From an uncultured beta proteobacterium (GTDB lineage: Bacteria > Pseudomonadota > Gammaproteobacteria > Burkholderiales > Burkholderiaceae_C): DNA of 54,269 bases. Positions 13,070-41,424 of this stretch are shown one piece after another (position 1 is the stretch's first letter; each line of letters starts with the position of its first letter). The notes below the pieces were generated by a model. It was not told where the DNA came from. It was given only the letters and a program-made list of their open reading frames with translations, and searched no databases. A program made the translations under genes and the position numbers. Location: the NCBI GenBank assembly GCA_903828665.1, contig CAIKMZ010000072.1, positions 1 to 54,269 of the forward strand, read 5' to 3'.

Positions 13070-13102
13070 CCGAAACCTTCCCTGAAGTATTGCACCGTAT
13101 CT

Positions 13103-14239
13103 ATGTCTGATTTGAGTCTTCAACTGCAGCGCCTCAGCGGCCAGTTGCCGGTTTCAAGCTATTTCGACGAAACACTGTACCAGCGCGAGCTGGAAACCAT
13201 TTTCGCCAAAGGTCCGCGCTATGTCGGACACGCCCTGAGCGTACCCAATGTCGGCGACTATTCGACCCTGGCGCAGGAAGGGCACGGCCGCGCCCTGCTG
13301 CGCAACGCCAGCGGCATCGAGCTGATCTCCAACGTCTGCCGCCATCGCCAGGCCGTGATGCTGCAGGGGCGCGGCTCGCTCAACACGACGCACGCGGGCG
13401 CGGCGGCCGGCAACATCGTGTGCCCGCTGCACCGCTGGACTTACAGCGGCGGCGAGAAGGCGCCGGCCGGGACTCTGCTGGGCGCGCCGCATTTTCCGAG
13501 CGACCCCTGCCTGCACCTGAACAACTACAAGCTGCGCGAATGGAACGGGCTGCTGTTCGAGGACAACGGCCGCGACATCGCCGCCGACCTGGCCGGCATG
13601 GGCCCGCGCGCCGACCTGGACTTCAACGGCTACGTGCTCGACCGGGTCGAGATGCATGAATGCAACTACAACTGGAAGACATTCATCGAGGTCTACCTGG
13701 AGGACTACCACGTCGGGCCCTTCCATCCGGGGCTGGGCAGCGTCGTCACCTGCGACGACCTGCGCTGGGAGTTCAAGGAGCACTATTCGGTGCAGACGGT
13801 CGGCGTGGCACGCCGCAGCGGCAAGGCCGGCACGCCGGTCTATCAGCGCTGGCAGGACGCGCTGCGCGCCTACGACAAGGGCGCAGCGCCGAAGTACGGC
13901 GCAATCTGGCTCACCTACTATCCGCACATCATGGTCGAGTGGTACCCGCATGTGCTGACGGTCTCGACCCTGCACCCGGTGGGCGTCGACAAGACCATGA
14001 ACCGGGTCGAGTTCTACTACCCGGAAGAAATCCAGGCCTTCGAGCGCGAGTTCGTCGAGTCCCAGCAGGCGGCCTACATGGAGACCTGCATCGAGGACGA
14101 CGAGATCGGCGAGCGCATGGACGCCGGCCGGCGCGCGCTGCTGCTGCGCGGCGACAACGAGGTCGGCCCCTACCAGGACCCGATGGAAAACGGCATGCAG
14201 CACTTCCATGACTGGTACCGCTGCCAGATCAAGCTCTAA
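13103..14239 (+). CDS. Rieske non-haem iron aromatic ring-hydroxylating oxygenase, alpha subunit
   Basis: A 378-residue catalytic subunit of a Rieske oxygenase. The [2Fe-2S] ligands are C79-x-H81 (NVCRH) and C107-x2-H110 (CPLH). The mononuclear iron site lies in VYLEDYHVGPFHPG, with H203 and H208 after an acidic pair. It would hydroxylate or demethylate an organic substrate using electrons from a reductase, but no reductase or beta subunit gene is nearby, so it must borrow one. The length suits a stand-alone alpha-type enzyme. The ATG at 13103 gives a standard N-terminus; upstream open frame runs antisense through nhaA and is not coding. An EamA transporter starts 5 bp after it. Confidence 0.9.
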   Translation: MSDLSLQLQRLSGQLPVSSYFDETLYQRELETIFAKGPRYVGHALSVPNVGDYSTLAQEGHGRALLRNASGIELISNVCRHRQAVMLQGRGSLNTTHAGAAAGNIVCPLHRWTYSGGEKAPAGTLLGAPHFPSDPCLHLNNYKLREWNGLLFEDNGRDIAADLAGMGPRADLDFNGYVLDRVEMHECNYNWKTFIEVYLEDYHVGPFHPGLGSVVTCDDLRWEFKEHYSVQTVGVARRSGKAGTPVYQRWQDALRAYDKGAAPKYGAIWLTYYPHIMVEWYPHVLTVSTLHPVGVDKTMNRVEFYYPEEIQAFEREFVESQQAAYMETCIEDDEIGERMDAGRRALLLRGDNEVGPYQDPMENGMQHFHDWYRCQIKL

Positions 14240-14244
14240 GCGCC

Positions 14245-15132
14245 ATGCAGGCGCTATGGATGGTTCTGGGTGCGTTCTTCTTCGCCACCATGGCGGTCGG
14301 CATCAAGGTCGCGGGCGCGAGTTTCAGCACGTTTGAGCTGGTGTTCTACCGCGGGGTGGTCAGCGTGATCTTCATCGCGCTGGTGCTGCGCTCGCGCGGC
14401 ACCAGCCTGCGCACCGCGGTGCCGATGATGCATGCCTGGCGCACGCTGATCGGCGTGCTGTCGATGGGATTCTGGTTCTATGGCATTGCGCATCTGCCGC
14501 TGGCCACCGCCATGACGCTCAATTACATGAGCAGCGTCTGGGTAGCGGCCTTCATCGTCGGCGGCGCCATCGTTTACGGCAAGACCGATGGCCAGGGCCC
14601 GCTGATGGGCACCGTGCTGGCCAGCTTTGCCGGCGTCATCATGCTGCTGCGCCCGACGCTGGAACAGAACCAGCTGTTTGCCGGCCTGATCGGCCTGCTC
14701 TCGGGCATGGGGTCGGCGCTGGCCTACCTGCAGGTCACGGCGCTGGGCAAGGTCGGCGAGCCCGAAGGCCGCACCGTGTTTTACTTCTCGCTCGGCTCGC
14801 TGGTGGTCGGCTCCGTCGGCATGCTGTTCACCGGCATGACGGCCTGGAGTTCGGTGAGCTGGCAGGCCGCAGCCTGGCTGCTGCCGATCGGCATCCTGGC
14901 CTCGCTCGGCCAGTGGTGCATGACGCGCGCCTACAGCCGCGGCTCGACGCTGCTGGTGGCCAATCTGCAGTACTCCGGCATCGTGTTTGGCGCGTTCTAC
15001 AGCCTGCTGCTGTTCGGCGACCGGATCCCGCTCGTGGGCTGGGCCGGCATGGGGCTGATCGTGGCCAGCGGCGTCGCGGCCACCGTGCTGCGCACGCGCG
15101 CCCTGCCCGGCACGCCCGCCGAGGACCACTGA
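14245..15132 (+). CDS. DMT-superfamily EamA transporter
   Basis: A 295-residue inner-membrane transporter of the drug/metabolite superfamily. It has about ten hydrophobic helices arranged as two EamA repeats, with the typical acidic/Gly breaks (FELVFYRGVVSVIF early; LLFGDRIPLVGWAGMGLIV late). It starts 5 bp after the oxygenase stop, so the two are almost certainly co-transcribed. It may export the oxygenase product or substrate analogue. Substrates of this family cannot be predicted from sequence. Confidence 0.9.
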   Translation: MQALWMVLGAFFFATMAVGIKVAGASFSTFELVFYRGVVSVIFIALVLRSRGTSLRTAVPMMHAWRTLIGVLSMGFWFYGIAHLPLATAMTLNYMSSVWVAAFIVGGAIVYGKTDGQGPLMGTVLASFAGVIMLLRPTLEQNQLFAGLIGLLSGMGSALAYLQVTALGKVGEPEGRTVFYFSLGSLVVGSVGMLFTGMTAWSSVSWQAAAWLLPIGILASLGQWCMTRAYSRGSTLLVANLQYSGIVFGAFYSLLLFGDRIPLVGWAGMGLIVASGVAATVLRTRALPGTPAEDH

Positions 15133-15170
15133 GGCTTGCACTGAACTATCCACCTGAAAGAAAGGCTGCC

Positions 15171-16043
15171 ATGTACACCACCCTGATCTCCGTCGCGCAA
15201 TTGCAAACCCTGCTGGCCAGTGGACAGCGCTGCATGGTGTTCGACTGCAGTTTCGAACTGATGGAGCCGGTTGCCGGCGATCAGCAGTACCAGCAGATGC
15301 ACATCGCCGGCGCCGTGCGCGCCGACTTGGACCGACACCTGAGCGCCCCCAAGGGCGCCAGCGATGCGGCCTCGGGCGGACGCCATCCGTTGCCCTCGCG
15401 CGAAACCTTTGCCGCCTGGCTGAACAGCGTGGGCTTTGACAGCACCATGCAGGCCGTGGTCTACGACCGCCAGGGCTGCAACTACTGCGGCCGCCTGTGG
15501 TGGATGCTCAAGTGGGCCGGCCATGAGGCCGTCGCCGTGCTCGACGGCGGCCTGCAGGCCTGGCAGGCCGGTGGCGGCGCGACCCGCAGCGGCGCGGAGT
15601 CTGGCGCCACCGCGGAACAGGCCGGTTCGGGCTTTGCCTTGTCCGCACCGAAGGCCGTTCTTGCCACCACGCAAACCGTTGTCAGCAAGCTCGGGCGACC
15701 GGGGCAGAACCTGATCGATGCGCGCGGCGCGCCGCGCTACCGCGGCGAAGTCGAGCCGCTCGACCCGGTGGCCGGCCATATTCCGGGCGCGCTCAATCGC
15801 GTCTTCGGACTGAACTTCGATGCCAGCGGAAAATTCAAGCCGGCAGCGCAACTCAAGGCCGAGTTCGAAGCCCTGCTGGCCGGACGCGACCCCGCCACCG
15901 TGGTGCACCACTGCGGCAGCGGCGTGAGCGCCGTGCCGAACATCATCGCCATGGAAGCAGCCGGCCTGGGCCGCGCCGCGCTCTATGCCGGCAGCTGGAG
16001 CGAGTGGTGCAGCGACCCGGCGCGGCCCGTCGCGCAAGGGTGA
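15171..16043 (+). CDS. Sulfurtransferase with two rhodanese domains
   Basis: A 290-residue tandem-rhodanese protein of the thiosulfate/3-mercaptopyruvate sulfurtransferase family. The N-terminal inactive-type domain contains VVYDRQGCNYCGRLWWML and LDGGLQAW. The C-terminal domain contains LIDARGAPRYRGEVEP, AGHIPGALN and the active loop HHCGSGVSA with catalytic C248. A CGSGV(S/T)A loop is closer to mercaptopyruvate than to thiosulfate sulfurtransferases. The unusual C-N-Y-C pair in the first domain could form a redox disulfide. A purine-rich AAAGAAAGG precedes the ATG at 15171. It is the last gene of the plus-strand run. Confidence 0.92.
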   Translation: MYTTLISVAQLQTLLASGQRCMVFDCSFELMEPVAGDQQYQQMHIAGAVRADLDRHLSAPKGASDAASGGRHPLPSRETFAAWLNSVGFDSTMQAVVYDRQGCNYCGRLWWMLKWAGHEAVAVLDGGLQAWQAGGGATRSGAESGATAEQAGSGFALSAPKAVLATTQTVVSKLGRPGQNLIDARGAPRYRGEVEPLDPVAGHIPGALNRVFGLNFDASGKFKPAAQLKAEFEALLAGRDPATVVHHCGSGVSAVPNIIAMEAAGLGRAALYAGSWSEWCSDPARPVAQG

Positions 16044-16061
16044 TGGCCGGCTGTCGCTGAA

Positions 16062-16088
16062 GGCTTCCGGCGTCCGCTTGCCGGAGCC
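16062..16088. terminator. Stem-loop between convergent genes
   Basis: GGCTTCCGGC (16062-16071) pairs with GCCGGAGCC (16080-16088) with one bulged T and an 8-nt loop. It sits between the converging sulfurtransferase and acyl-CoA dehydrogenase genes. No T-run follows on either strand. The rest of 16044-16276 shows nothing else. Confidence 0.35.
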
Positions 16089-16276
16089 TCAGTGCAACGC
16101 CTTCCGGAAGCAGTTCGGGGTATACGCAAGGTGCCCGCAACCGACCGCCATGATGTTCGGGCGCATTCGTTGCCCGACACGGTTGTGCAAGCCGAAGCAG
16201 CCGCCCGGATCAGCGGGCCAGCTTGAGCGACTAGGCGGCCTCCGGTCAAACCAGGTGGTGCACTGGTTGATCTCAC

Positions 16277-17434
16277 TCACACTCGCGCGGCGAGCCCGCG
16301 TGCAATCAGCTCTTTCATGATTTCGTTCGAGCCGCCGTAGATCTTTCCGGCACGCGCATTAACGTACATTCGGGCGATAGGATATTCGGTCATGTACCCG
16401 TAGCCGCCGTGTATCTGAAGACATTCGTCGACCACCTCGCAGTTGGCTTGCGTACACCACCACTTCGCCATGGCAGCGGTTTCGTTGTCGAGCTTCCCCT
16501 GCAACACCATGGCCATGCAAGAATCCACAAAATGGCGTGCCACAGTTGCTTTCGTGCTGCACTCGGCCAATTTGAAACGGGTGTTTTGCAAGCTGAGTAG
16601 CGGCTGCCCGAAGACCACCCTGGCGCGCGCATAAGCCGCCGTCTCTTCGACCGCACGCTGCATCGTGGCGACGCATCCGAGGGCGATGATCATGCGCTCC
16701 TGTGGAAGCTGTTCCATCAATTGCCCGAAGCCCTTGCCTGTTTCCACGCCGAGCAGATTCGAGTAAGGCACTCGTACGCCATCGAAGAACAGCTCCGACG
16801 TGTCCTGGCCCTTCAAGCCTATCTTCTCCAGGATCTTCCCACGGCGATAGCCACTCAAATCCTTTGTCTCAACGACAATCAACGACACCCCGCGGGCGCC
16901 GGCACCTGTCTCGGTCTTGACCACGACACAAACAAGATCTGCGAGCCATCCGTTCGTGATGAAGGTCTTTGCGCCACTGATCACCCAATCGTCGCCCGAA
17001 CGGATCGCCTGGGTTTTCACTGACTTGAGATCTGAACCGGCCCCCGGCTCGGTCATCGCGATCGCACCTACGAACTCGCCCGAGGCCATCTTGGGCAGCC
17101 AGCGCAGCTTTTGCTCCTCCGTCCCATAACGCAGGATATATTGCGCAACAATCCCGCTGTGCACGTTGACGTTCGGCCCGATCGCCAGCGCACGCCCCAT
17201 CTCAAGGGCGACCACGGCGTCATGGCCAAAGTGTCCGCCCCCCCCGCCGTACTGCTCCGGGATCGATGGGCATAACAGGCCGGCGTGGCCGAAGCGATTC
17301 CAGATCGGCCTGTCAACGTGCCCCTGTTCGGCCCAGTGCGCCTCTTGCGGAGCCACCTCCTTCTCAATGAATCGCCGTGCCGAGTCACGAAAAAGTTGAA
17401 GATCCTCGTCAATCCATGGATGGTCGGTTGTCAT
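16277..17434 (-). CDS. Acyl-CoA dehydrogenase (long-chain/isovaleryl-like active site)
   Basis: A 385-residue FAD enzyme that would introduce an alpha,beta double bond in an acyl-CoA. It carries the signature AMTEPGAGSDLKSVKT, the FITNGW motif, the arginine-containing RVVFGQPL stretch, and the C-terminal KIYGGSNEIMKELI. That last motif lacks the MCAD-type Glu (YEGT), as in long-chain and isovaleryl-CoA dehydrogenases, which use a Glu on helix G. The matching Glu is present here in LPQERMII. The ATG at 17434 starts the canonical protein. It is the last gene of the mutase cluster, so it probably oxidises the rearranged acyl-CoA. Confidence 0.92.
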   Translation of the reverse strand: MTTDHPWIDEDLQLFRDSARRFIEKEVAPQEAHWAEQGHVDRPIWNRFGHAGLLCPSIPEQYGGGGGHFGHDAVVALEMGRALAIGPNVNVHSGIVAQYILRYGTEEQKLRWLPKMASGEFVGAIAMTEPGAGSDLKSVKTQAIRSGDDWVISGAKTFITNGWLADLVCVVVKTETGAGARGVSLIVVETKDLSGYRRGKILEKIGLKGQDTSELFFDGVRVPYSNLLGVETGKGFGQLMEQLPQERMIIALGCVATMQRAVEETAAYARARVVFGQPLLSLQNTRFKLAECSTKATVARHFVDSCMAMVLQGKLDNETAAMAKWWCTQANCEVVDECLQIHGGYGYMTEYPIARMYVNARAGKIYGGSNEIMKELIARGLAARV

Positions 17435-17615
17435 TGCCGTGCAGTCGTGTGAAAGTGAATAAAAGGTTAGTGTGGTGAACCGCCAGGGGAGGCCCATTCA
17501 CTCGGAGCGGATCGAACGAGCCCTGACACCGTGCGCATCCGTTGACGGCACTGACGGGCCGCGATCCTCGTGTTGCGGCGCGTCACCGTGGCAAGGGCGA
17601 AGGTGTGATCCATCG

Positions 17616-18533
17616 TTATTTGCCGGGCTCGCCAGACTCGTCTGACGCCGGCAAATCGAAGCGCACATTGACCTTCTCCCGTACGGTCGGATGCACGCCC
17701 CTGACATCAAACAGAGTTCCCCACTGCTGTTTATTGTTGCTGTGGGAGAGGTGATGCAGGCCGAAGGCATGCATCATGGCATTGCGCCGACCCATCACAT
17801 CCTGCGCATGGTTGACAGCTTCCTTGACGGCCTTCACCGCAAAGGTGGATTTTGAGGCAATCTTCTGCGCCATCGCGATTGCCGCAGGCAACAGATCGGC
17901 GGTGGGTACCACCTGGTTCACCATTCCGAGTTGTTTGGCCTCAAGTGCGCTCAGCCAGTCGGACGTCATCAGCCACTCCTTGGCCTTGCGTACGCCGATT
18001 TCCCACGGGTGCATGAAGAACTCGACGCCGGCCACACCGAATTCAAGGGTTGGATCACGGAACCTGGCGTTATCGGCTGCAACAATCATGTCACAAGCCC
18101 ATGCGAGCATGAGTCCACCGGCGATGCACGAGCCTTGAACCACCGCGATGGTTGGCTTCGCAATGTTTCGCCAACGCTCGCACATATCGAAATAGATTTC
18201 CTTCTCACGGCCATACAGGGACTCGACGCCTTTTTCATCGAACCCACCCCAAACGCCCACGGTCTCAAAGTCGCGCCACGTCATCCCGCGATCCCCGCCC
18301 ATGTCGTGCCCCGTCGAAAAATGCGGCCCCTCTCCCGAAAGCAAGATCACCCGCACCTGATCGTCGTGCGCAGCGCGATCGAATGCGTGATTCAGCGCGT
18401 ACGTCATCGCCATATTCTGTGCGTTGCGCACCTCCGGTCGCGCCATCACGATATTCACGATCCCCGGCGCAGGCTGTTCGTAACGCACACCTTCGTAAGT
18501 GGCAGGATCAAATTTTGGCTGTGAATTGCTCAT
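17616..18533 (-). CDS. Enoyl-CoA hydratase/isomerase family protein
   Basis: A 305-residue crotonase-fold enzyme, somewhat longer than the usual 260. It has the oxyanion-hole segments HFSTGHDMGGD (near residue 71) and IAGGLMLAWACD (near residue 137). The second catalytic-glutamate region reads PTLEFGVAGVEFF, so a Glu is available near that position, although the family motif is altered. An extra loop (MTWRDFETVGVW...) of about 30 residues follows the first motif and may shape the pocket. AGGAG lies 7 nt before the ATG. It sits between the MeaB-like and acyl-CoA dehydrogenase genes, so hydration of the dehydrogenase product is the natural role. Confidence 0.9.
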   Translation of the reverse strand: MSNSQPKFDPATYEGVRYEQPAPGIVNIVMARPEVRNAQNMAMTYALNHAFDRAAHDDQVRVILLSGEGPHFSTGHDMGGDRGMTWRDFETVGVWGGFDEKGVESLYGREKEIYFDMCERWRNIAKPTIAVVQGSCIAGGLMLAWACDMIVAADNARFRDPTLEFGVAGVEFFMHPWEIGVRKAKEWLMTSDWLSALEAKQLGMVNQVVPTADLLPAAIAMAQKIASKSTFAVKAVKEAVNHAQDVMGRRNAMMHAFGLHHLSHSNNKQQWGTLFDVRGVHPTVREKVNVRFDLPASDESGEPGK

Positions 18534-18594
18534 GTTCCATCTCCTACGTTATTAAAATTTGTCTGCAAAGTCGCCTCGTTGTGGCGCGATCCAC

Positions 18595-19575
18595 TCAGTG
18601 CTCCATCGGGATCGCGCGCAACAGGCGCGAAGCAGCCTCCCACACCGACAGGTCCCCGCTCACCACACCGGACTGGATATCGGCGAACATGGCTGTATGC
18701 GTCGCGGCGTCAATCTGACGTTTCAGCATGGCCTGAGCCACTTCAACCAGTTCGCGCGCGCTGCGCCGACTCCGACGTCGTGCCAGTTCGCCCGATTGTT
18801 CTGCCTGTCGAAGGTTCTCTGACACCGACTCCCAAAGCTCGCCGATCCCCTGCCCGCTCGTGGCCACCGTTTCAAGAACGTCCGGTCGCACCTGGCCAGC
18901 CGGAAGTGAGGCGATCAAGCCGTTCAGATCACTGCGCAACACATGCGCGCCGAGATGATCGGCCTTGTTGATGACAAACACATCGGCGATCTCCATGAGG
19001 CCAGCCTTGAAGACCTGAACTTCATCGCCCGCGCCGGGATTGAGTACCACGACCACAACGTCGGCAATGGTCGAGACGTCAACGTCGACCTGCCCGCTCC
19101 CGACCGTTTCTATGAATACCTGTGGCCAGCCGCACGCGTGCAGACAGCGCACGGCTGCACGGGTCATGTCCGACACGCCGCCGGCGCGACCCCGTGATGC
19201 CATGGAACGCACAAAAATGCGCGGGTCGGTTGAGACCGATTGCATCCGCACGCGGTCACCCAGCAAGGCGCCACCCGAGATAGGGGAAGACGGATCGATC
19301 GCGACTGCCGCTGCCCGAACGTCCTGTTGCGCCACATGGGCCAGCAGGGAGCCGAGCAAGGTCGACTTTCCAGCGCCCGGAGCCCCTGTGATCCCGATCG
19401 TGAACGCGGGACTGCCGGCATCCGGCGAAGGGATGCGGATCGGGCCCCCGTTGCCCTGCCCACGCTCGATATGACTCAGCAGGCGGGCCAATGCGGCCCG
19501 ATCACCTGAGCTTGCGCGCCGAAACAAATCGTCTACATCCGCGCTTGAGTGCTGCTCCCAATTTCGCAATTTCAC
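18595..19575 (-). CDS. MeaB/ArgK-type GTPase, mutase chaperone
   Basis: A 326-residue G3E-family GTPase of the MeaB/MMAA type, which gates cofactor loading and protects B12-dependent acyl-CoA mutases. It shows Walker A GAPGAGKST (residues 64-72), the switch stretch AIDPSSPISGGALLGDR, FVRSMASRG, the ETVGSGQVDVD segment (normally ETVGVGQSE), and NKAD for guanine specificity. The start is GTG 19575, preceded by AAGGG. It begins 9 bp after the small mutase subunit stop. This linkage supports a working B12 mutase even though the large subunit is divergent. Confidence 0.93.
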   Translation of the reverse strand: MKLRNWEQHSSADVDDLFRRASSGDRAALARLLSHIERGQGNGGPIRIPSPDAGSPAFTIGITGAPGAGKSTLLGSLLAHVAQQDVRAAAVAIDPSSPISGGALLGDRVRMQSVSTDPRIFVRSMASRGRAGGVSDMTRAAVRCLHACGWPQVFIETVGSGQVDVDVSTIADVVVVVLNPGAGDEVQVFKAGLMEIADVFVINKADHLGAHVLRSDLNGLIASLPAGQVRPDVLETVATSGQGIGELWESVSENLRQAEQSGELARRRSRRSARELVEVAQAMLKRQIDAATHTAMFADIQSGVVSGDLSVWEAASRLLRAIPMEH

Positions 19576-19584
19576 CCCTTCGCT

Positions 19585-19971
19585 TCAGACGAGGCCGGTG
19601 AGCCGTCTCGCCGCGGCGACGATGTCCGGCAGTTGCGAGCCCGGCGGATAGACCTCGACCCCCTTGGCCTCGAGCTTTCGGGCGGCCCACGGCGGCACCA
19701 CGCCGCCCACGAAGATTGAAATATCAGGTCGACGCTGCCTCACCGATTCAACAATGCGTTCAACGACGTCGATGTGTCCTCCGATGCTCAAACCCAGCAG
19801 TTCAACGTCTTCGTCGACAACCGCCTGAGCGATCTCGTCCGGCTTGGCCATGCCAAGCAGGATGACCTCGAAGCCCGCGTCCCGCAGTGCCTTCGAAACC
19901 AGCGATGCGCCGCGCCAGTGACCGTCCAGGCCCGTCTTTGCGATCAAGATTCGCGTGTTGGTGTCCGCCAT
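19585..19971 (-). CDS. Cobalamin-binding small subunit of acyl-CoA mutase
   Basis: A 128-residue B12-binding domain, the size of the separate small subunits of isobutyryl- and 2-hydroxyisobutyryl-CoA mutases. The base-off/His-on motif D-x-H-x-x-G is intact (KTGLDGHWRGA, near residue 21), as are GLSIGGHIDVV and GGVVPP for the nucleotide tail. The ATG at 19971 follows AAGGAAG; longer in-frame readings add a basic tail lying in the mutase gene and are rejected. It lies 28 bp after the large subunit, so the two are made together. Confidence 0.95.
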   Translation of the reverse strand: MADTNTRILIAKTGLDGHWRGASLVSKALRDAGFEVILLGMAKPDEIAQAVVDEDVELLGLSIGGHIDVVERIVESVRQRRPDISIFVGGVVPPWAARKLEAKGVEVYPPGSQLPDIVAAARRLTGLV

Positions 19972-19999
19972 GAGTTCTTCCTTTTTCCGTCTGAATTTG

Positions 20000-21631
20000 C
20001 TAGACAGTGATGCGCGGCGCAGTCCAATCGCCAAAGACATTCCGATAAACGTCTCCGATCTCGCCAAGCGTGACTTCCGAGTCCAAGGCGTCCAACATCG
20101 CAGGCATGATGTTCTGCGATCCGCGGCACGCCGTTTCCAGCTCGCGCAAGGCGCGTGACGCAGCGGCAGACGAGCGGCTGCGTCGTACTTCCTCTAGTCG
20201 CGCCGCAGCAACGTCGTAGGCGTCGGGGACACCGCGAAAGCCGTCCACTTCAAACGGAGAGATGTCGTTTCGGAAGTCCGTAACGCCAACAATGACACGC
20301 TCTCCACTTGACTGCCCAAGAATATCGGTCTGCTGGTTCTCGTGCGCGCGTTGGTGAAGCCAACCCGAGTCGAGCGTGGCGAGAAAGCCGCCCTCATTCT
20401 GAATCTGTTCGAAGAACTCCCATCCCTTTTCGACCAGCGCTGCTGTCAACGCCTCGACGTAATACGAGCCGCCCAGTGGATCGGTCACCGCGGCGGTATT
20501 CGTTTCGTGCAGTAGGATCTGCTGAATACGCAGCGATATCTGATGCGCGTGCTCCGACGGAACCGACAGCGCTTCGTCGTAACCTGAAACTCCCAGTGAC
20601 TGGATACCACCGAGCACGCCGGCAAGTCCCATCATGGTGCCTCGAACGATGTTGTTGAGAGGTTGCTGATACGTCATTGCTGAGCCCGCCGTGACGCAAT
20701 GGATGCGCATGCTCATCACCTTTTCGTCCGTGATTCCGTATCGTCGCTGAAGCAGGTCGCGCCACATCATCCGCGCCGCCCGCATTTTCGAAGCTTCCTC
20801 GAAAAGATCCATGCCCAACCGGAAGCTGACGCCCCCGCACGCCTTCGCCGCATGCTCGATCGGCATCGAGCCGCGTCGCTTGATCTCGTCGAGATACTCG
20901 ACGGCGTTCGCGAAGAGCGCGCCGAGTTCCTGATAGGCGTTCAGCCCTGAGTCGGCGCCGTTGTATGCGGCAATGGAGATGGGCACCCACTTCGGGAGGT
21001 GCTTGTCGCAGAACTCCATGATGTCGGCGTTCAATCGGAGCCCAGGCGCCGTCGGGATCTGCTGCTTCGTAACGCAGCCGAGATAGGTCACGAAGAAGTC
21101 GCTCTGCCCGGTACCGGCAAGCCGCGACAGTTCGATGCCGCGACGCCTTGCAACCGTCCAGTACGCGGCGAGTGCGTATGGCGCATGCTGCACCACGCCG
21201 CCGCCCGGATGGGCGTAGGAGCTCTCGATCGGGATTCCATCCAGGCAAAGTTCGGTGTCCCGGATGCTCTGCATCACCGCGCCGGTCTGACCGACATCCT
21301 CCCGCCTCGCCAGCACCTCAGGATGATCGACGTTGTAGAGATGGTCGGCCGTATTGCGATCATGCTTCATGCGAATCGCCGCGTCACCGTTGGCGATGAG
21401 GAACTTGATTCGCTTGTTGATATCCTCCGGATTGCCAAATCCGCTGAGCTGAAGAATCCGCCACGGCTTGGATCGATACCCTGCCGGATGGACTCCGCGG
21501 TGATATGGCGCCGCACCCGGCGGGACGTCGACGTTATCCCGATGCGTCGCCGGAACGTCGGCGCTCGTGTAATACGGTTTGAGAGGGATGCCTGAAGCAG
21601 AAACCCAGTTCTGGCGGTTATCGTGAGTCAT
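20000..21631 (-). CDS. Divergent B12-dependent acyl-CoA mutase, large (catalytic) subunit
   Basis: A 543-residue TIM-barrel subunit of the methylmalonyl-CoA mutase family. The fold is clear from KPWRILQLSGFG, GTGQSDFF, KMRAARMMW, DPLGGSYYVEALT and QNIMPAML. The pocket is not: L62 stands where methylmalonyl-CoA mutase has Tyr89 (Phe in isobutyryl-, Ile in 2-hydroxyisobutyryl-CoA mutase). C186 replaces Arg207/Gln, N224 replaces the catalytic His244 (AAYN for SGYH), R87 replaces Ser114, V313 replaces the Gln of HCQT, and G347 replaces the His of SLHTN. Loss of Arg207 argues against methylmalonyl-CoA. GGAG lies 5 nt before the ATG. The partner subunit and GTPase follow directly. Alignments were done by eye. 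Confidence 0.9.
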   Translation of the reverse strand: MTHDNRQNWVSASGIPLKPYYTSADVPATHRDNVDVPPGAAPYHRGVHPAGYRSKPWRILQLSGFGNPEDINKRIKFLIANGDAAIRMKHDRNTADHLYNVDHPEVLARREDVGQTGAVMQSIRDTELCLDGIPIESSYAHPGGGVVQHAPYALAAYWTVARRRGIELSRLAGTGQSDFFVTYLGCVTKQQIPTAPGLRLNADIMEFCDKHLPKWVPISIAAYNGADSGLNAYQELGALFANAVEYLDEIKRRGSMPIEHAAKACGGVSFRLGMDLFEEASKMRAARMMWRDLLQRRYGITDEKVMSMRIHCVTAGSAMTYQQPLNNIVRGTMMGLAGVLGGIQSLGVSGYDEALSVPSEHAHQISLRIQQILLHETNTAAVTDPLGGSYYVEALTAALVEKGWEFFEQIQNEGGFLATLDSGWLHQRAHENQQTDILGQSSGERVIVGVTDFRNDISPFEVDGFRGVPDAYDVAAARLEEVRRSRSSAAASRALRELETACRGSQNIMPAMLDALDSEVTLGEIGDVYRNVFGDWTAPRITV

Positions 21632-22032
21632 GGTTACTCCAGACTTGAAGCTCGGTTGAAGGGCGCTGCACGGGCATCTGACGTTCGACCGCCATCGCAC
21701 TCGAAATCAGGTCGGACGCGCCCAGTGGCGAAGACACGGCCGTGATCGTCATCGGTTCGCCCGGGTGCGTTGGCGCTCGAAACTGCACAACCGCGAGCAC
21801 CGCGAACATGGCCACCACGCAAGTGCTGCTTCCCGTGCGCGGCGTCCATCGAAGAAAGTCTTTGTTCTGCATGAGGAAGATTTCAGCACCCGTTGCGCAG
21901 TGGCGCAAATCCAAGTTGTTCAGACGTGCACCATGTGCACATTGCGGAGCGAGCTCAGCAGCAGTCGTCGCTCTGTTTCTTGCGCATAAGCACGCACACA
22001 TTGATCGCGATGCGTGCATGCGCGGCGCCCCT
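21632..22032. promoter_or_regulatory. 401-bp gap upstream of the mutase genes, with two dyads
   Basis: No credible gene. Two symmetric elements stand out. One is GTGCAC-CAT-GTGCAC at 21926-21940. The other is a long inverted repeat at 21982-22023: GCGCAT then GCACGCA, a 14-nt spacer, then TGCGTGC and ATGCGC, with two unpaired bases in the left arm. The long one lies 10 bp after the CoA-transferase stop, so it may end that transcript; the other may belong to a mutase promoter. No T-run follows the hairpin in the direction of transcription. Confidence 0.45.
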
Positions 22033-23157
22033 CTACTGCGTTGCGCAATTACCCGGATCTCTCAAACCCCATTCGAGCAATACCTCTTCGGTATGTGCGC
22101 CCGACTCGGGCGGAGGCCGCCGCAGTTCCGAGGGGGTACGGCTGAACCGTGGCGCGGGCGCGGGCTGCAGCACGCCTTGCACGGTTACCAGGCTCCCCCG
22201 CGAGACCACGTGCGGATGGACAGCCGCTTCGCGGCTGCTCAAGACCGCGCTCACGCAGGCGTCCGTTCCTTCAAATATCGCATCCCACTCAGACCGGGTT
22301 CTCTGAGCAATCCGAGACGCGAATACCGACCGCAGTTCCCCCCACCGCGTGCGATCGGAGCGGGGTGCAAGTTTCTCCTGGTCCAGCCCGAGGCATTCCG
22401 TGAGTTGTGCGTAGAATCGCGGCTCCACGGCGCCGAGGGCCAGATGGCGGCCATCTGAGGTTTCGTACACGCCGTACCACGGCGCGCCGCCATCCAGCAC
22501 ATTCGAGCCGCGGCTTTCCTGCCAGAGCCCTGCAGCTTGCAAACCGAAGGTCCCCGCCATCAGCAAGGCGCTTCCATCCAGCATTGCGGCGTCCACCACC
22601 TGCCCCTGACCCGAGCGTCTCGCCTCCAGACAGGCCGCGAGCACTCCGATTGCGAGCAGCATCCCGCCGCCGCCGTAGTCGGCAATCAGGTTCAATGGCG
22701 GCACGGGCGGACCATTGGCCGGCCCAATGGTGTCAAGCACGCCCGAGGCCGCAATGAAGTTGATATCGTGACCCGCCGACTGTGCGAGCGGCCCATCTTG
22801 GCCGTAGCCGGTGACGCGCCCATAGACCAGCGCAGCATTGAGCCCCATGCAGTCCTGCGGCCCGACGCCCAGGCGTTCCATGACCCCGGGGCGGTAACCC
22901 TCGATCAGGATTTCAGCGCGTGCCGCCAGTTGCAGGAGCATGTCGCGTCCCGCCGAGGTCTTCAGATCAAGTTCAACCGAGCGGCGCCCCCGATTCATCA
23001 CCTCGAACCGGTGTTCGATAGGAATGCCGCGCTCGGGCGCGTTCGCGCGTTCGATGCGGACCACGTCAGCGCCCATGTCCGCCAGCAGCATCGCGCAAAA
23101 GGGCGCCGGCCCGAATCCCGCAAGTTCGACCACCCGCACGCCGTCCAGAACACCCAT
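22033..23157 (-). CDS. CaiB/BaiF (class III) CoA-transferase
   Basis: A 374-residue class III CoA-transferase that moves CoA between acids through an aspartyl intermediate. It begins MGVLDGVRVVELAGFGPAPF, followed by LADMGADVVRIE, the RGRRSVELDLK block, and ADYGGGGMLLAIGV, whose Asp is the expected nucleophile. Glycine-rich PWYGVYETSDGRHLALG lies near residue 225. The start is ATG 23157, one base after the upstream SnoaL-like stop, showing coupling. Similarity to alpha-methylacyl-CoA racemases means a racemase role is the main alternative, which would also suit a branched-chain acyl-CoA pathway. Confidence 0.88.
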   Translation of the reverse strand: MGVLDGVRVVELAGFGPAPFCAMLLADMGADVVRIERANAPERGIPIEHRFEVMNRGRRSVELDLKTSAGRDMLLQLAARAEILIEGYRPGVMERLGVGPQDCMGLNAALVYGRVTGYGQDGPLAQSAGHDINFIAASGVLDTIGPANGPPVPPLNLIADYGGGGMLLAIGVLAACLEARRSGQGQVVDAAMLDGSALLMAGTFGLQAAGLWQESRGSNVLDGGAPWYGVYETSDGRHLALGAVEPRFYAQLTECLGLDQEKLAPRSDRTRWGELRSVFASRIAQRTRSEWDAIFEGTDACVSAVLSSREAAVHPHVVSRGSLVTVQGVLQPAPAPRFSRTPSELRRPPPESGAHTEEVLLEWGLRDPGNCATQ

Positions 23158-23158
23158 C

Positions 23159-23737
23159 TCAGCGCAGACCGAGTTCCTGGCGCAGGATCTGCACCGCGTC
23201 GCTGCCGTCGCGACGACCAATGATCCAGCCCTCGCGAGGCTGCAGGGCCTTGTAGTGCACCTCGGCGATCTGCTTCCAGTCCTGTGCCAGATCGCGGCGC
23301 GCAATGCGCCATTCACCACCACGCCGCTCGACCCGGTCGATGTAGCGCGAGGAGGTGAACATGTCGACTGCGGCGTCCGGTTGACCGACGGCGCCGCCCG
23401 TCAGCTGCGCCAGCTGGTGCTTGGCAGCCGGTGGATATTGCTGGATCGTGCGGACATATGACTCCACCAGAGCCACCTCCTCGCTCGCGAATTCGATCAG
23501 CAGGTTGCCGATGAAATGGCTCGACACCTGGATTGGTTTGTGGCGCTCCAGTATCCAGTCCACCAAGCCCTCTGCGGGGCCGATGTAGGGTCCGTGGCTG
23601 TCGATCGCGCCGGGCCAGAATACATCCAACATGCCCTGCCGGTCGAGACGGTCCACGGCGCGGCACCAACGGTAGATCAAGTCCTGGATCATGAAGCGGT
23701 CGGCGATGCGCGCCGGACTGTATTGGTCGATGGTCAT
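23159..23737 (-). CDS. SnoaL/NTF2-like fold protein
   Basis: A 192-residue protein of the SnoaL-like (NTF2 cone fold) group. It has the typical opening helix and pocket (IQDLIYRWCRAVDRLDRQGMLDVF), the WPGAIDSHGPYIGP loop, and SSHFIGN with a His, then a C-terminal beta-sheet (SRYIDRVERRGGEWRIARRD). Members act as dehydratases, isomerases or small oxygenase partners, and the pocket Asp/His pairs are compatible with acid-base chemistry. The start is ATG 23737; GTG 23749, which overlaps the upstream Bug stop, is an alternative. It is coupled to the CoA-transferase, so a small catalytic step on the same substrate is likely. Confidence 0.75.
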   Translation of the reverse strand: MTIDQYSPARIADRFMIQDLIYRWCRAVDRLDRQGMLDVFWPGAIDSHGPYIGPAEGLVDWILERHKPIQVSSHFIGNLLIEFASEEVALVESYVRTIQQYPPAAKHQLAQLTGGAVGQPDAAVDMFTSSRYIDRVERRGGEWRIARRDLAQDWKQIAEVHYKALQPREGWIIGRRDGSDAVQILRQELGLR

Positions 23738-23745
23738 GCTTGGAC

Positions 23746-24720
23746 TCACGTTGCTTTCAGGTTCACGCGGGCCGCGATCTCCTGCATGAAGGCTGCTTCG
23801 CGCTTGATCAGCGCGGCCAAGTCCTCCGGACTGCCGCCGACCGGCACCATGCCACCGGCTTCGAGGCGCTCGCGCACGCCGGCATCCGCCAGCATTCGAT
23901 TGAGCGATGCGTTGACCCGATCGATGACAGCGCGCGGCGTTCCCGCCGGTGCACCCACGCAGAACCACGGCGCTACCACGAAGCCGGGCAGAATCGTCTC
24001 ATGCAACGTTGGCAGCTGGGGGAGTTGCTTCGAGCGTTCGCGTGAAGTGACAGCGAGCCCCTTGATCCGGCCAGCCTGAATCAGCTTGAGGGAAGAAGAG
24101 ATCTGGTCAATGCTGAAGTCGATGGTGCCGCCAACCAGATCGGCGAGCATGGGCGTGCCGCCCTTGTAGGGCACGTGCAGGGCCGTCACGCCCGTGCGGA
24201 GCTTGAACAATTCACAGGAGATGTGTGAACTCGACGCCAGGCCCGAGCTTCCGTGCTGCAGCTTGTCAGGGTTGGCCTTCATGTAGGCCACCAGTTCCTG
24301 CGGCGAATTCACCGGCAGGTCGGCCCGCACCATCAGCACGTTTGGCGCATCGGCAACCTGAATGACCGGGGTGATCGCGTCCATGGTGTACGGCAGGTTG
24401 CTGTAAGCGAAGTGGTTGGTCACCATTGGACCCACCGACGTCACAAGCAGCATGTAGCCGTCAGGCTTTGCGCGCGCGACCGCCGCGACACCGATGGAGC
24501 CTGTGGCACCAGGGAGGTTCTCCACGACAACGCTGCGCCCGAGCTCCTTGCCCAGGTGTGCCGCAACAATGCGGCCAATGATGTCTGTGGAGCCACCGGG
24601 TGGGAACGGCACCATCACCTTGACGATCTCTTGCGGCCAGGCCTGAGCGAATGCGCGGCCGGAAATCGTCAGGGTGGCGGCGGCGGCGGACGCGAGAACT
24701 TGTCTGCGGCTGATTCTCAT
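23746..24720 (-). CDS. Bug/TctC-family periplasmic solute receptor
   Basis: A 324-residue tripartite tricarboxylate transporter receptor (Bug family). The N-terminus (MRISRRQVLASAAAATLTISG) looks like a Tat-type or Sec signal, cleaved near AFAQA. The mature protein has VKVMVPFPPGGSTDIIGR, the ENLPGATGSIG loop and PYKGGTPMLADLVGG, all typical ligand-loop motifs. No tctA/tctB membrane genes lie in the window, as is common for orphan Bug receptors in Burkholderiales. Its stop overlaps the possible GTG start of the SnoaL-like gene. Ligands of this family are mostly organic acids. Confidence 0.93.
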   Translation of the reverse strand: MRISRRQVLASAAAATLTISGRAFAQAWPQEIVKVMVPFPPGGSTDIIGRIVAAHLGKELGRSVVVENLPGATGSIGVAAVARAKPDGYMLLVTSVGPMVTNHFAYSNLPYTMDAITPVIQVADAPNVLMVRADLPVNSPQELVAYMKANPDKLQHGSSGLASSSHISCELFKLRTGVTALHVPYKGGTPMLADLVGGTIDFSIDQISSSLKLIQAGRIKGLAVTSRERSKQLPQLPTLHETILPGFVVAPWFCVGAPAGTPRAVIDRVNASLNRMLADAGVRERLEAGGMVPVGGSPEDLAALIKREAAFMQEIAARVNLKAT

Positions 24721-24881
24721 GGCTGGGATCTCCTTGGGTTGGTCTTCGGGTGATCAGGGTTCGCGAAACTAGGCCTGGCGTGCTTGCTACTTGCGCCCTT
24801 GCATCCGGCCGGTCCGGGCGCCACGCGGGCGGCGGGCGCAAGCAGGCACCTTGTGCACGCATGCAGCGAGCTCAACCGCGC

Positions 24882-26099
24882 TCACAGAACGCCCAGTCTT
24901 GCGAGCGCCGCGATGCGATCGGCCGACAGTCCGAGCAGTCCGCCGTACACCTCTTCGTTGTGCTCACCGAGGTCCGGCGCTGCCGCGATCGGCTTCTCCG
25001 GCGTGCCCGAGAACTTGGGGATCACGCCAGCCATGCGCACCGGCCCGATCTTCGGATCGCAGACGCTTGTGATCGTGCCTCGCGCCGCGTAGTGGGGATC
25101 CTTCATGATGTCCTCGACGCTGTAGATGAAGGAGTAGGCGAGTTTGGCTTCATCGAGCCGGGCGCACAGTTGCTCGACCGGCTGCGACTCGATCCATGCG
25201 GCCACTGCAGCATTGAGCTCATCCACATGCTGCCAGCGCTTCTCGTGCGACTCGAACCGCGGATCGGCCAGCCACTCGCCACGTTCCATTGCGCCGGCCA
25301 GGCGCTGAAAGCCTGCGTCAGCCGAGATTGTCAGAATCAGATAGCGACCGTCAGAAGTGCGGAAGTGTTCCCCCGGGGCGGCCGCAAAGTGCTTGTTGCC
25401 GCGGCGTTCCCTCACCGTGCCCATGCGGTCATAGGCTGGAACCAGAACCTCCGTGAATCGGATAATTGCTTCATACATGGCCAGATCGATCTCCTGGCCC
25501 TCGCCGCCATGGCAGTCGCGGTGGTAGATCGCCATCATGAGGGCGAAGGCGCCGAGAATCGCCGATTGGTAGTCAGCGGTAGAAGTGCCAATCCGCACCG
25601 GTGGGCGGTCGGCGTAACCCGTGATGCCCATGAGCCCGCCGAACGCCAGCGCAATCCGGTCGTAGCCGGCGCGCTCGCGATAGGGCCCGGTCTGTCCGAA
25701 CCCGGAAATCCGCAGCATCACGAGGGCCGGATTGCGCGCCTTCAGCACGTCGTAACCCAGACCCCATTTCTCCAGCGTGCCGGGGCGGAAATTTTCGACC
25801 ACAGCATCGGCCTTTTCGACGAGTTGCAGCAGCAGCTCCTTGCCCTCAGGGTGCCGCAGGTCCAGCGTGACGGATTTCTTGTTGCGGGCCTCCACGCTCC
25901 AGTAAAGGCACTTGCCGTCCACGAACGGACCGAGATCGCGCACGGTGTCACCCCGCTTTGGAACTTCGACCTTGATCACCTCGGCGCCAAAGTCGGCGAA
26001 CAAGGTGCAGGCGACCGGACCCGCCACCATGGTGCCGAGATCGAGGATGCGCAAGCCACTGAGCAGGTGCGGACCCGGCGTACGCAGCTGTCCTTTCAT
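24882..26099 (-). CDS. CaiB/BaiF (class III) CoA-transferase
   Basis: A 405-residue class III CoA-transferase, only distantly similar to the one at 22033. It shows GLRILDLGTMVAGPVACTLFADFGAEVIKVE, the RNKKSVTLDL motif, ENFRPGTLEKWGL, and TSTADYQSAILGA with the presumed nucleophilic Asp. The typical PGEHFRTSDGRYLILT and a C-terminal PHYAARGTI segment follow. It is 161 bp upstream of the first Bug gene on the same strand. Two different CoA-transferases beside one receptor each suggest two successive or alternative CoA activations. Substrate unknown. Confidence 0.92.
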   Translation of the reverse strand: MKGQLRTPGPHLLSGLRILDLGTMVAGPVACTLFADFGAEVIKVEVPKRGDTVRDLGPFVDGKCLYWSVEARNKKSVTLDLRHPEGKELLLQLVEKADAVVENFRPGTLEKWGLGYDVLKARNPALVMLRISGFGQTGPYRERAGYDRIALAFGGLMGITGYADRPPVRIGTSTADYQSAILGAFALMMAIYHRDCHGGEGQEIDLAMYEAIIRFTEVLVPAYDRMGTVRERRGNKHFAAAPGEHFRTSDGRYLILTISADAGFQRLAGAMERGEWLADPRFESHEKRWQHVDELNAAVAAWIESQPVEQLCARLDEAKLAYSFIYSVEDIMKDPHYAARGTITSVCDPKIGPVRMAGVIPKFSGTPEKPIAAAPDLGEHNEEVYGGLLGLSADRIAALARLGVL

Positions 26100-26402
26100 G
26101 CGGCTTCACCCACGACGGCGAGAGTGTCGCTATTGCGGCTGCCCCTCAACAACGTGCAGCCAGCCAGACGGCTCCAGCGCGCCCGGTTCCAGCTTTCATT
26201 CTTGCGCAACTGCATCGACGCGACCACCTTGCCCCTGGCCGGAACGCGGGTCATCGGCAGTTCAAGGTCAAGATGAGAGAACCACGCGGCGTCGCAGGTC
26301 CGATTGGCGGCACGTTGTTGACAAGACCTTGTTGACGCAGAACTTCGCTCTGTCGCCGGCGGACGCTGCGGGCTTGCGTTTGGAGTCATGCTCAACGCAG
26401 GC
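26100..26402. promoter_or_regulatory. 303-bp gap with direct repeat and small dyad
   Basis: No credible gene on either strand. TTGTTGAC occurs twice as a direct repeat (26315-26322 and 26329-26336), and the span between contains the dyad ACAAG-AC-CTTGT (26321-26332). It lies about 220 bp upstream of the CoA-transferase start at 26099 and after the second Bug gene, so it could be a regulator site for the CoA-transferase/Bug unit. Nothing else is apparent. Confidence 0.3.
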
Positions 26403-27371
26403 CTAGTTGACTGTCATGCCTGAAGTGCGGACGACGTCGCCCCACTTGGCATACTCCGAAGCGATCGTGCGCGCCAAGGCGGTCGACGAGCCGTAAGCCG
26501 GTTCAAATCCGAGGTTGACCAGTTTCTGCCTGACCTCCGGCATGGCGAGCACCTTCTCAACCTGCTGGTTCAGCTTGTAGACGACCGCTTCGGGCGTGCC
26601 CTTTGGCGCTACCAGGCTGGTCCAGCCGACCGCTTCATATCCGGCTATTCCCGCCTCTTGCATGGTCGGCACGTCGGGCAACAGCGACGAGCGGCGGCTG
26701 TCCAGGACGGCCAGCGCCCGCAGCTTGCCGCTCTTGATATTTTCCTGCTGCGCGCCGATCGTATCCGCCATGATTGGCACACGGCCCGCCATCACGTCGA
26801 TCGATGCCGGAGCGCCGCCGGCGTAAGGAACGGAGCCCAGATCGACGTCGGCCTTCGACTTGAACAACTGCAGTGCCAGCTCGAACGCCTGCGCGCCGGA
26901 GGCGTACATGATGGCGCCGGGACGCGCCTTCGCCTCCCGCACCAGCGCCTGCACATTGTCGGACTTGAAGCCCGGGCCTGCCAGCAGCACCATCGGTGCC
27001 TTCGCAACCATGCCTATTGGTTCGAAGTCGGTCAACGGATCATAGAGTTTGACCTTCATCAGATGTGGGCCGGTGGTGAGCGTTCCGCTGACGCCCAGGC
27101 CCAGTGTGTAACCGTCCGCAGGTGCCTTCGCAACCAGGCTCATGCTGAGCATGCCGCCGACGCCCGGTTTGTTCTCCACCATGAACGGTTGCCCATTCAT
27201 CTTGGTGAGCTCTTGTGCGACCAAGCGGGCCACGATGTCAGAGGCGCCCCCGGGCGGATAGCCGACCAGCAGCCGCACGGCTTTCGATGGGTAGACCGGA
27301 GCCTGTGCAAGAGCTTGCGGAAGCTGCAACATGGCCGCGCAAGCCAGGGCAACGAAGGTGACGCTTTTCAT
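26403..27371 (-). CDS. Bug/TctC-family periplasmic solute receptor
   Basis: A 322-residue Bug-family receptor with a plain Sec signal peptide (MKSVTFVALACAAMLQLPQALAQ). The mature part has VRLLVGYPPGGASDIVARL, ENKPGVGGML, and PYAGGAPASIDVMAGRVPIMAD. It is a second orphan receptor, clearly different from the one at 23746. It is the first gene of the minus-strand run and faces the IclR gene across a 143-bp intergenic region with a palindrome, so it is likely the direct regulatory target. Confidence 0.93.
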   Translation of the reverse strand: MKSVTFVALACAAMLQLPQALAQAPVYPSKAVRLLVGYPPGGASDIVARLVAQELTKMNGQPFMVENKPGVGGMLSMSLVAKAPADGYTLGLGVSGTLTTGPHLMKVKLYDPLTDFEPIGMVAKAPMVLLAGPGFKSDNVQALVREAKARPGAIMYASGAQAFELALQLFKSKADVDLGSVPYAGGAPASIDVMAGRVPIMADTIGAQQENIKSGKLRALAVLDSRRSSLLPDVPTMQEAGIAGYEAVGWTSLVAPKGTPEAVVYKLNQQVEKVLAMPEVRQKLVNLGFEPAYGSSTALARTIASEYAKWGDVVRTSGMTVN

Positions 27372-27449
27372 GGGGATGTCTCCTGATTCTTTTTGCTTCG
27401 CGACCAGTATCTGCCATGGTCCGGCAGCTCAACTTCGTCAATGTGCCGT

Positions 27450-27470
27450 TTTGGCCACATTGTGGACAAA
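27450..27470. promoter_or_regulatory. Near-perfect palindrome, candidate IclR operator
   Basis: TTTGGCCACA (27450-27459), one spacer base, then TGTGGACAAA (27461-27470): 9 of 10 arm positions are complementary. It lies in the divergent intergenic region between the Bug gene (start 27371) and the IclR gene (start 27515). A further half-site TGTCCAC occurs at 27505-27511, just before the IclR ATG. The position suits control of both directions by the adjacent IclR protein; that link is inference. Confidence 0.55.
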
Positions 27471-27514
27471 TCAGGCTTCTCCCTCTCGGACTACGGCCTG
27501 ACAATGTCCACGTC

Positions 27515-28327: not shown

Positions 28328-28390
28328 TACCCGCAAGCCCTTGTTGAAGGACACACACCCCATCGCGGCTCGGGAGAACGCAGCCGAAAT

Positions 28391-28412
28391 TGCCGGCCAA
28401 CGATGACCGGCA
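28391..28412. terminator. Weak stem-loop between convergent genes
   Basis: TGCCGG (28391-28396) and CCGGCA (28407-28412) form a 6-bp stem with a 10-nt loop, between the IclR gene and the converging lactonase-like gene. No T-run follows. Confidence 0.25.
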
Positions 28413-28510
28413 GGCCAGGTCATTTGGCGGGTGGACAAAAGCGTGCAAAGCTTGCCGGCATCGGGCGTTGACCCTCGCGTTGCCGCTTCGAGGGCATGGA
28501 CTGATTCCGG

Positions 28511-30831: not shown

Positions 30832-30844
30832 CGTTGGACCTTCA

Positions 30845-41310: not shown

Positions 41311-41330
41311 AACTGCGAATAATACATACA

Positions 41331-41345
41331 TACATTTTCAATGTA
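41331..41345. promoter_or_regulatory. Dyad in divergent promoter region, candidate operator
   Basis: TACATT (41331-41336), three bases, AATGTA (41340-41345): perfect 6-bp arms inside an A+T-rich patch. It lies between the divergent acyl-CoA dehydrogenase (41310) and enoyl-CoA hydratase (41425) genes. It could be the target of the IclR protein at 36800. The sequence differs from the palindrome at 27450, so the two regulators would have separate sites. Confidence 0.35.
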
Positions 41346-41424
41346 CATATGGGGTTTACCAGCTGATTCGATGGTCATATCTGACGTATCATGTCCTCGC
41401 TTTTCGCCACCAGGACCAACTCCC

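Follow-up and report, generated by a model that had tools for sequence, protein, structure and literature searches.

The stretch of DNA analysed here (the window, 54,269 nucleotides of contig CAIKMZ010000072.1 from an uncultured beta proteobacterium) encodes an acyl-CoA-mutase-like large (catalytic) subunit, a separate B12-binding small subunit and a MeaB-type chaperone GTPase, which lie on the same strand with short gaps between them (Table 1). The marks of the adenosylcobalamin (AdoCbl)-dependent acyl-CoA mutase superfamily are present, namely the PF01642 barrel and a B12-binding domain with the D-x-H-x-x-G motif. An initial annotation of this DNA had described a cofactor subunit with this motif intact and an adjacent MeaB-type GTPase, and both statements were borne out: the small subunit reads TGLDGHWRG, with D16, H18 and G21 invariant in a 24-row alignment, and the GTPase matches both PF03308 and TIGR00750, its Walker A motif (GAPGAGKST, read by eye) being intact. 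The family scan of the small subunit was made on a longer open reading frame (ORF) with a TTG start, 19585-20067, the ATG start being at 19971.

The active site of the large subunit was placed in register by HMMER comparison with solved mutases and by profile-profile alignment (HHalign) against separate profiles of methylmalonyl-CoA mutase (MCM), 2-hydroxyisobutyryl-CoA mutase (HCM) and the group of X. autotrophicus Xaut_5043, which together with Xaut_5044 we take to be a pivalyl-CoA mutase (PCM). All three profiles give the same register, in which N224 corresponds to His244 of the P. shermanii MCM, G347 to His364 of the SLHT motif, V313 to Gln330 and L62 to Tyr89. Arg207 aligns with C186/V187, where the loop has one extra residue and the column contains neither Arg nor Gln; in the alignment, K189 (Lys in 26 of 27 family rows, Arg in one) and Q191 (all 27) follow 2-5 residues past it. 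L62, R87, K89, C186, N224, V313 and G347 were thus all found where the initial annotation had put them, and residue 90 is His (H90). A misalignment hiding His244 or Arg207 was rejected on the agreement of the profile alignments against the three sets, none of which restores an equivalent of His244 or of Arg/Gln207.

The results further showed that L62, C186, N224 and G347 are invariant in the 27-row family alignment, which consists of the window copy and 26 relatives, and in all 30 rows of another set in which some of the same genes recur, and they are therefore not there by chance. In P. shermanii numbering, the family has Leu at 89; Ile (15 rows) or Leu (11 rows) at 114, where Arg (R87) is private to the window copy; Glu at 116 (residue 89 of the window protein) in 24 of the 27 rows and Lys in three (the window and the loci L028 and L030); His at 117; neither Arg nor Gln at 207; Asn at 244; Val at 330 (26 rows, with Leu once); and Gly at 364. 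It keeps Thr195, Gln197, Tyr243, His328, Gln361 and Glu370. The residue pair L62/K89 that was first put forward as distinctive is present in the window, with the correction that most of the family has Glu in place of the Lys. Likewise, L62 was read correctly, but it is not specific to a new active site, because the Xaut_5043 clade also has Leu at the place of Tyr89.

To place these changes among mutases in general, we compared the family with a range of others, among them an IcmF-like protein, human and P. shermanii MCM, HCM (4r3u, M. petroleiphilum) and the plasmid mutases of X. autotrophicus. The 36 mutases used for conservation leave out L083 and L089, 21 further MCM rows (for balance), duplicate rows, and a partial and a further family row. 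Of the 55 columns that are at least 93% conserved in these mutases, at least 90% of the family rows retain 40, among them T195, Q197, E370 and A371, which argues for a working barrel and against decay. Among the 15 that are not kept, R87, S114, G124, H244, F287 and Q330 (P. shermanii numbering) are replaced in every family row and D126 in 25, while the loss of N99, G242, G274 and L512 is only partial. N236 is replaced by Val, S164 by Gly, T166 by Ala or Gly and R87 by Phe or Leu, and position 283 is variable, the stretch 162-166 being hard to align; we take R87, N236, S164, T166 and R283 to line the CoA channel. The change of the active site is thus wider than first claimed and takes in these presumed channel positions.

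His244 is present in all 36 comparison mutases (L083 and L089, which stand outside that set, both lack it) and Asn takes its place in 27 of 27 family rows. This His is presumably the residue that assists migration of the thioester and shields the radical, and to our knowledge all acyl-CoA mutases with a studied mechanism keep it, so that its loss may mean altered handling of radicals, as the initial annotation had suggested. Given that His244 is missing, the placement of the family as a deviant branch of the superfamily draws on its domain and cofactor features. The loss of residues that are central in MCM might also be expected of a non-catalytic or decaying homologue. The reading frames are open, however, 152 columns are invariant and gap-free across the 27 rows in a family that spans phyla, and an intact B12 subunit and GTPase are linked to the gene; a decaying gene was rejected on this strict conservation, and we consider such a reading very improbable.

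Phylogenetic analysis placed the family apart from the known mutases. A carefully built tree of 56 rows united the 18 rows of the family (support 100/100; stem length 1.96 changes per site) and set them apart from the MCM, HCM, Xaut_5043 (PCM), IcmF and ethylmalonyl-CoA mutase (ECM)-like rows, each of which was itself supported at 100/100; the two ECM-like rows, L081 and L095, were labelled so from sequence only. In a quick second tree of 50 rows, built without L083, L089 and L059, 38 family rows fell together with a Shimodaira-Hasegawa-like approximate likelihood ratio (SH-aLRT) of 100. The large subunit therefore belongs to none of the subfamilies sampled, the benzylmalonyl-CoA mutase IaaGH and authentic ECM sequences being outside both trees. 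As far as sequence goes, neither the clustering nor the alignment refutes the new class first proposed, since the protein is a member of no sampled clade and His244 and Arg/Gln207 are not recovered.

L083 and L089, two other mutases without His244, were dropped as candidate members, since they share 29% and 31% identity, respectively, with the window protein and lie on long branches. L083 (G804:C72:6343-7857), a deviant mutase from the same genome as family member L023, joins the family stem at 84/80 in the 56-row tree as a very long branch, a placement that the program flags as possibly false. L089 (5857-7578, on a plasmid of Sphingobium sp. TomTYG74) consists of a mutase with small subunit and MeaB, adjoins a P450, an epoxide hydrolase and a TonB receptor, lacks Arg207 and most active-site residues as well as His244, and has Glu at 116 (LEYD, compared with MEHD in the window protein).

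Among solved structures, the best match was HcmAB (PDB 4r3u; 302 bits, E 8e-89), which resembles the window mutase in its split subunits, in an Asp at the place where most of the new family has Glu89, and in shared GYDEA and DPLGGSYYVEALT stretches. The two differ in that they are only 32% identical, HCM retains Gln207, His244, Gln330 and His364, and the window protein has Leu62 and Lys89 (Glu in most relatives) where HCM has Ile (89) and Asp (116), and lies in a separate clade supported at 100/100. Xaut_5043/5044 of X. autotrophicus Py2 likewise has Leu at the place of Tyr89 and an adjoining separate small subunit and GTPase gene, but it is 30% identical, keeps His244, Gln330 and His364, and forms its own clade, again at 100/100. 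The term pivalyl-CoA mutase was not found in the open-access literature searched. MCM (human and P. freudenreichii shermanii) shares the superfamily fold, the B12 domain and a MeaB/MMAA-type chaperone, whereas its Tyr89, Arg207, His244, Gln330 and His364 are all replaced, with Leu62 for Tyr89 and Cys186/Val187 for Arg207, and the window protein lies outside its clade. Isobutyryl-CoA mutase and IcmF are of the same superfamily; their Phe at 89 and Gln at 207 are absent from the window protein, and L004 of the window's own genome, labelled IcmF-like from its 1139-aa frame, has this Phe/Gln signature together with His244 on a separate branch. Membership of HCM, PCM, MCM or IcmF was accordingly rejected by residues, identities and clades. 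The window's genome thus holds three further PF01642 mutases, an MCM, a member of the Xaut_5043 clade (L002) and L004, along with a PF01923 cob(I)alamin adenosyltransferase; L002 (G000:C7:4810-6357), its second uncommon mutase, is 68% identical to Xaut_5043.

No title or abstract among the matches listed from the open-access literature, which leaves most subscription journals outside its coverage, described this subfamily. With the same domains, cofactor subunit and chaperone as known mutases and an active site outside the sampled subfamilies, the mutase belongs to a widespread and apparently undescribed subfamily, whose reaction and substrate are probably new.

Relatives were collected by a scan of genome contigs with exact 8-residue patterns, and the counts are lower bounds. 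At least 30 were obtained: 26 close ones of full or near-full length (57-73% identity), one fragment (64%) and three ordinary mutases (31-34%). They come from Halieaceae and other Gammaproteobacteria, Alphaproteobacteria, Acidimicrobiia and a metagenome-assembled genome (MAG) of Ktedonobacterales; Kineobactrum sediminis F02 and NOR5-3 are named strains, and most others are MAGs. The small subunit lies directly downstream of the large one in 25 of the 26 relatives and the 26th runs off its contig, the ORFs having been called by simple scripts instead of a gene finder. In the window's own class, 3 of 369 genomes carry a member, compared with 25 of 120 in the taxonomic family of the Kineobactrum genome and 9 of 198 in the class that includes the L026 genome (centre genomes counted in each case). 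In a phylum sample of 398 genomes, for each of which at most three best candidates were scored, the window stood alone at family level and the next best protein was 36% identical. The window mutase was not found in the 35 same-genus genomes searched, and because the distribution is patchy and these genomes are without a copy, the window gene looks acquired. Plasmids gave no close kin, with none at 60% identity or above among 60 of 426 matching records listed and 36% for the best-ranked, and a phage search with the protein of L006, a Glu89 member from Kineobactrum sediminis, returned two distant mutases only.

The window copy also departs from its own family, and it does so in one place. There are 238 columns conserved in the other members with at most two exceptions, and the window differs at 13 of these, 8 of them between residues 60 and 89; for the interval 58-91, which was picked once the cluster had been noticed, p=3e-6. 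When only strictly invariant columns were counted, five of seven departures fell within the same interval (p=0.00014). The other members showed no such clustering: the highest count in 30 residues is 6, reached by L028 and L030 with departures at 32-33 columns in all. Since its column has either Ile or Leu in the other members, R87 does not count towards the 13 departures. Together with K89 it corresponds to P. shermanii positions 114 and 116, and the Asp of HCM at 116 is, we assume, the residue that binds the substrate hydroxyl, with R87/K89 on the same strand; these two new cations on the strand of the HCM Asp suggest that the window copy may act on an anionic acyl-CoA. On the tree, Lys89 arose twice: in the window, and independently in a set of loci that belong to the same class as the L026 genome. 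The initial annotation had proposed an uncharged substrate because the carboxylate-binding Arg is gone, which is only partly supported; R87/K89, the clustered departures and the two TctC receptors and two CaiB transferases near the gene make an anionic substrate at least as likely for the window copy.

Table 1. Features of the mutase locus and its surroundings in the window (cut-offs in brackets where given).
Feature	Coordinates	Strand	Matches and motifs
Acyl-CoA dehydrogenase	16277..17497	-	PF00441/PF02771/PF02770
Enoyl-CoA hydratase, PRK08290 subfamily, directly downstream of MeaB	17616..18533	-	NF006140 370 bits (280); PF00378
MeaB-type chaperone GTPase	18595..19575	-	PF03308 243.8 bits; TIGR00750 273.4 bits (240.75); Walker A
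B12-binding small subunit, 128 aa	19585..19971	-	PF02310 76 bits; TIGR00640 108 bits (57.45); DGHWRG
Acyl-CoA-mutase-like large (catalytic) subunit, 543 aa	20000..21631	-	PF01642 460 bits (22.1); TIGR00641 376.6 bits (303.8)
Family III (CaiB) CoA-transferase	22033..23157	-	PF02515 298.9 bits
SnoaL-like protein	23159..23737	-	PF13577 64.7 bits
Tripartite tricarboxylate transporter receptor (TctC)	23746..24720	-	PF03401 216 bits
Second CaiB CoA-transferase	24882..26099	-	PF02515 407 bits
Second TctC receptor	26403..27371	-	PF03401 219.5 bits

In the window, the CaiB transferases lie on the other side of the mutase from the dehydrogenase and hydratase, and the dehydrogenase is 52% identical to one that lies 3.5 kb from the mutase in L024. 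The first CaiB ORF was listed up to 23322 and the SnoaL-like ORF up to 23968; the likelier starts are the Met at 23157, before GVLDGVRV, and the Met at 23737, respectively, and the SnoaL-like protein possibly belongs to the same catabolic island. Within the 21.7 kb tested by tblastn around the window mutase, ligase, P450 and iron-type alcohol dehydrogenase (Fe-ADH) were unmatched; a set of AMP-ligase, dehydrogenase and hydratase lies at 38606-42213, 17-21 kb from the mutase. No cobalamin riboswitch was found, 14000-32500 being without an Rfam match up to E 0.5. Elsewhere in the window, a long, repeat-rich multihaem protein with many CXXCH motifs (51737-54268, reverse strand; Cytochrome_C7, Mtrc-MtrF and Paired_CXXCH matches) runs off the end, and a ferredoxin-type FAD oxidoreductase (43568-44875) lies near it.

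To compare neighbourhoods, we searched by tblastn 24 family loci of at least 11 kb, the window included, and 18 control stretches, which came from three gammaproteobacterial genomes only; as the probes derive from these loci, the window among them, probe loci match themselves. The small subunit was matched in all 24 family loci. CoA ligase was matched in 22 of 24 (the match in L023 being only 27% identical), and MeaB, hydratase and Fe-ADH in 16 each; 12 loci had a P450, 11 a luciferase-like monooxygenase, 8 an acyl-CoA dehydrogenase and 6 a thiolase, with 0 of 18 controls in every case. The picture is broadly the same in 16 more loci that overlap in part with these (13 with a ligase), except for L152, which has little beyond the small subunit and a weak hydratase match. 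Outside the window, CaiB was matched only in L140 and L144, both with Lys89. In L030, also with Lys89, a sulfoacetaldehyde acetyltransferase (L030:12092-13828; TIGR03457 788 bits, cut-off 676.4) begins about 60 bp past the small subunit. A class III aminotransferase and an AMP-ligase also follow the small subunit in L030, which suggests a sulfonate link. In L141, cobalamin biosynthesis genes (12989-15144; PF02277 phosphoribosyltransferase and PF02654 CobS) come directly after the CoA ligase that follows the small subunit. Taken together, the neighbours, which include CoA ligase or CaiB, acyl-CoA dehydrogenase, hydratase, P450 and monooxygenase, suggest degradation of branched acids.

The ligase counts also bear on whether the substrate is a standard acyl-CoA at all. 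Because the presumed CoA-channel residues are replaced, another carrier or a free acid has to be considered; yet a CoA ligase accompanies nearly all family loci, the window has CaiB transferases, and the Xaut_5043 row is without S164 and T166 too, though it keeps R87 and N236, and we regard a non-CoA substrate as improbable.

Many gammaproteobacterial loci have a P450, an Fe-ADH and a CoA ligase close to the mutase, and this, together with a Leu at the place of Tyr89 as in Xaut_5043, would fit a mutase for bulky, tertiary and uncharged (pivalyl-type) acyl groups, which would convert R-C(CH3)2-CO-SCoA into R-CH(CH3)-CH2-CO-SCoA after a methyl group on the quaternary carbon had been oxidised to the acid and activated. 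This is a possibility that we hold tentatively, as the pocket is charged (Glu89 in most members, Arg87/Lys89 in the window) and Xaut_5043 falls in a different clade, one in which His244, Gln330 and His364 are retained. A somewhat more doubtful proposal is that the Lys89 members use strongly anionic acyl-CoAs, which would be dicarboxylic monothioesters in the window, with its CaiB and TctC genes, and a sulfonate in the L030 lineage. The double origin of Lys89, the TIGR03457 match in L030, and the occurrence of CaiB in three (the window, L140 and L144) of the six distinct loci with Lys89 that reach 11 kb, and in no tested Glu89 locus, are consistent with it. However, about 8 kb with other genes separates CaiB from the mutase in L140 and L144, the Lys89 loci L141, L142 and L030 carry ligases and not CaiB, the CaiB probe was the window's own protein, and there are only two independent cases, since L140 and L144 are sisters.

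The reading we favour, with moderate confidence, is that of an AdoCbl-dependent acyl-CoA mutase of an undescribed subfamily, loaded by MeaB and most likely rearranging a branched acyl-CoA for catabolism. What the locus and its relatives present is superfamily membership, an intact B12 motif, a chaperone gene, a deep clade, a replaced active site and catabolic-looking neighbours, and from these we infer AdoCbl radical chemistry on a CoA thioester. The chemical steps are all taken from the superfamily. A branched acid would be activated by the CoA ligase (most relatives) or a CaiB transferase (window), and the mutase's own MeaB GTPase would load AdoCbl onto the pair of large and small subunits. 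The adenosyl radical would then take a hydrogen from a branched acyl-CoA unable to enter beta-oxidation, the thioester group would move between neighbouring carbons, and the rearranged acyl-CoA would pass to the acyl-CoA dehydrogenase and hydratase. Asn224 could offer only a weak, neutral hydrogen bond to the thioester where His244 would be an acid, and R87/K89 of the window copy may bind a second, anionic group, e.g., that of a dicarboxylic monothioester.

Several points weigh against this reading. The CoA thioester itself is not certain, given the replaced channel columns, and the members may not share one substrate, because the neighbours differ between lineages. The surroundings in the window may say little, as the copy may be an import that is absent from the 35 same-genus genomes. 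Separation from the controls was weaker for TonB (14 of 24 vs 3 of 18) and short-chain dehydrogenase (SDR; 10 of 24 vs 2 of 18), and aldehyde dehydrogenase (2 of 24 vs 2 of 18), an Xsc-like protein and a class III aminotransferase (each 1 of 24 vs 1 of 18) were found in both. More speculatively, the family may comprise B12 radical mutases without a general-acid His, with a rebuilt adenosyl and CoA pocket, that carry out a new rearrangement (e.g., of a dicarboxylic or sulfonated branched acyl thioester), the substrate being tuned by a Glu/Lys switch at residue 89 flipped at least twice; we advance this with less than even confidence.

The invariant loss of His244, and with it of the Tyr, Gln and His that surround the adenosyl group, makes the family a natural test of the roles of those residues. 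The gene clusters look like those for degradation of branched or oxygenated acids, and since two members occur in named strains (Kineobactrum sediminis F02 and NOR5-3) within such catabolic-looking clusters, the question of the substrate is open to genetics.

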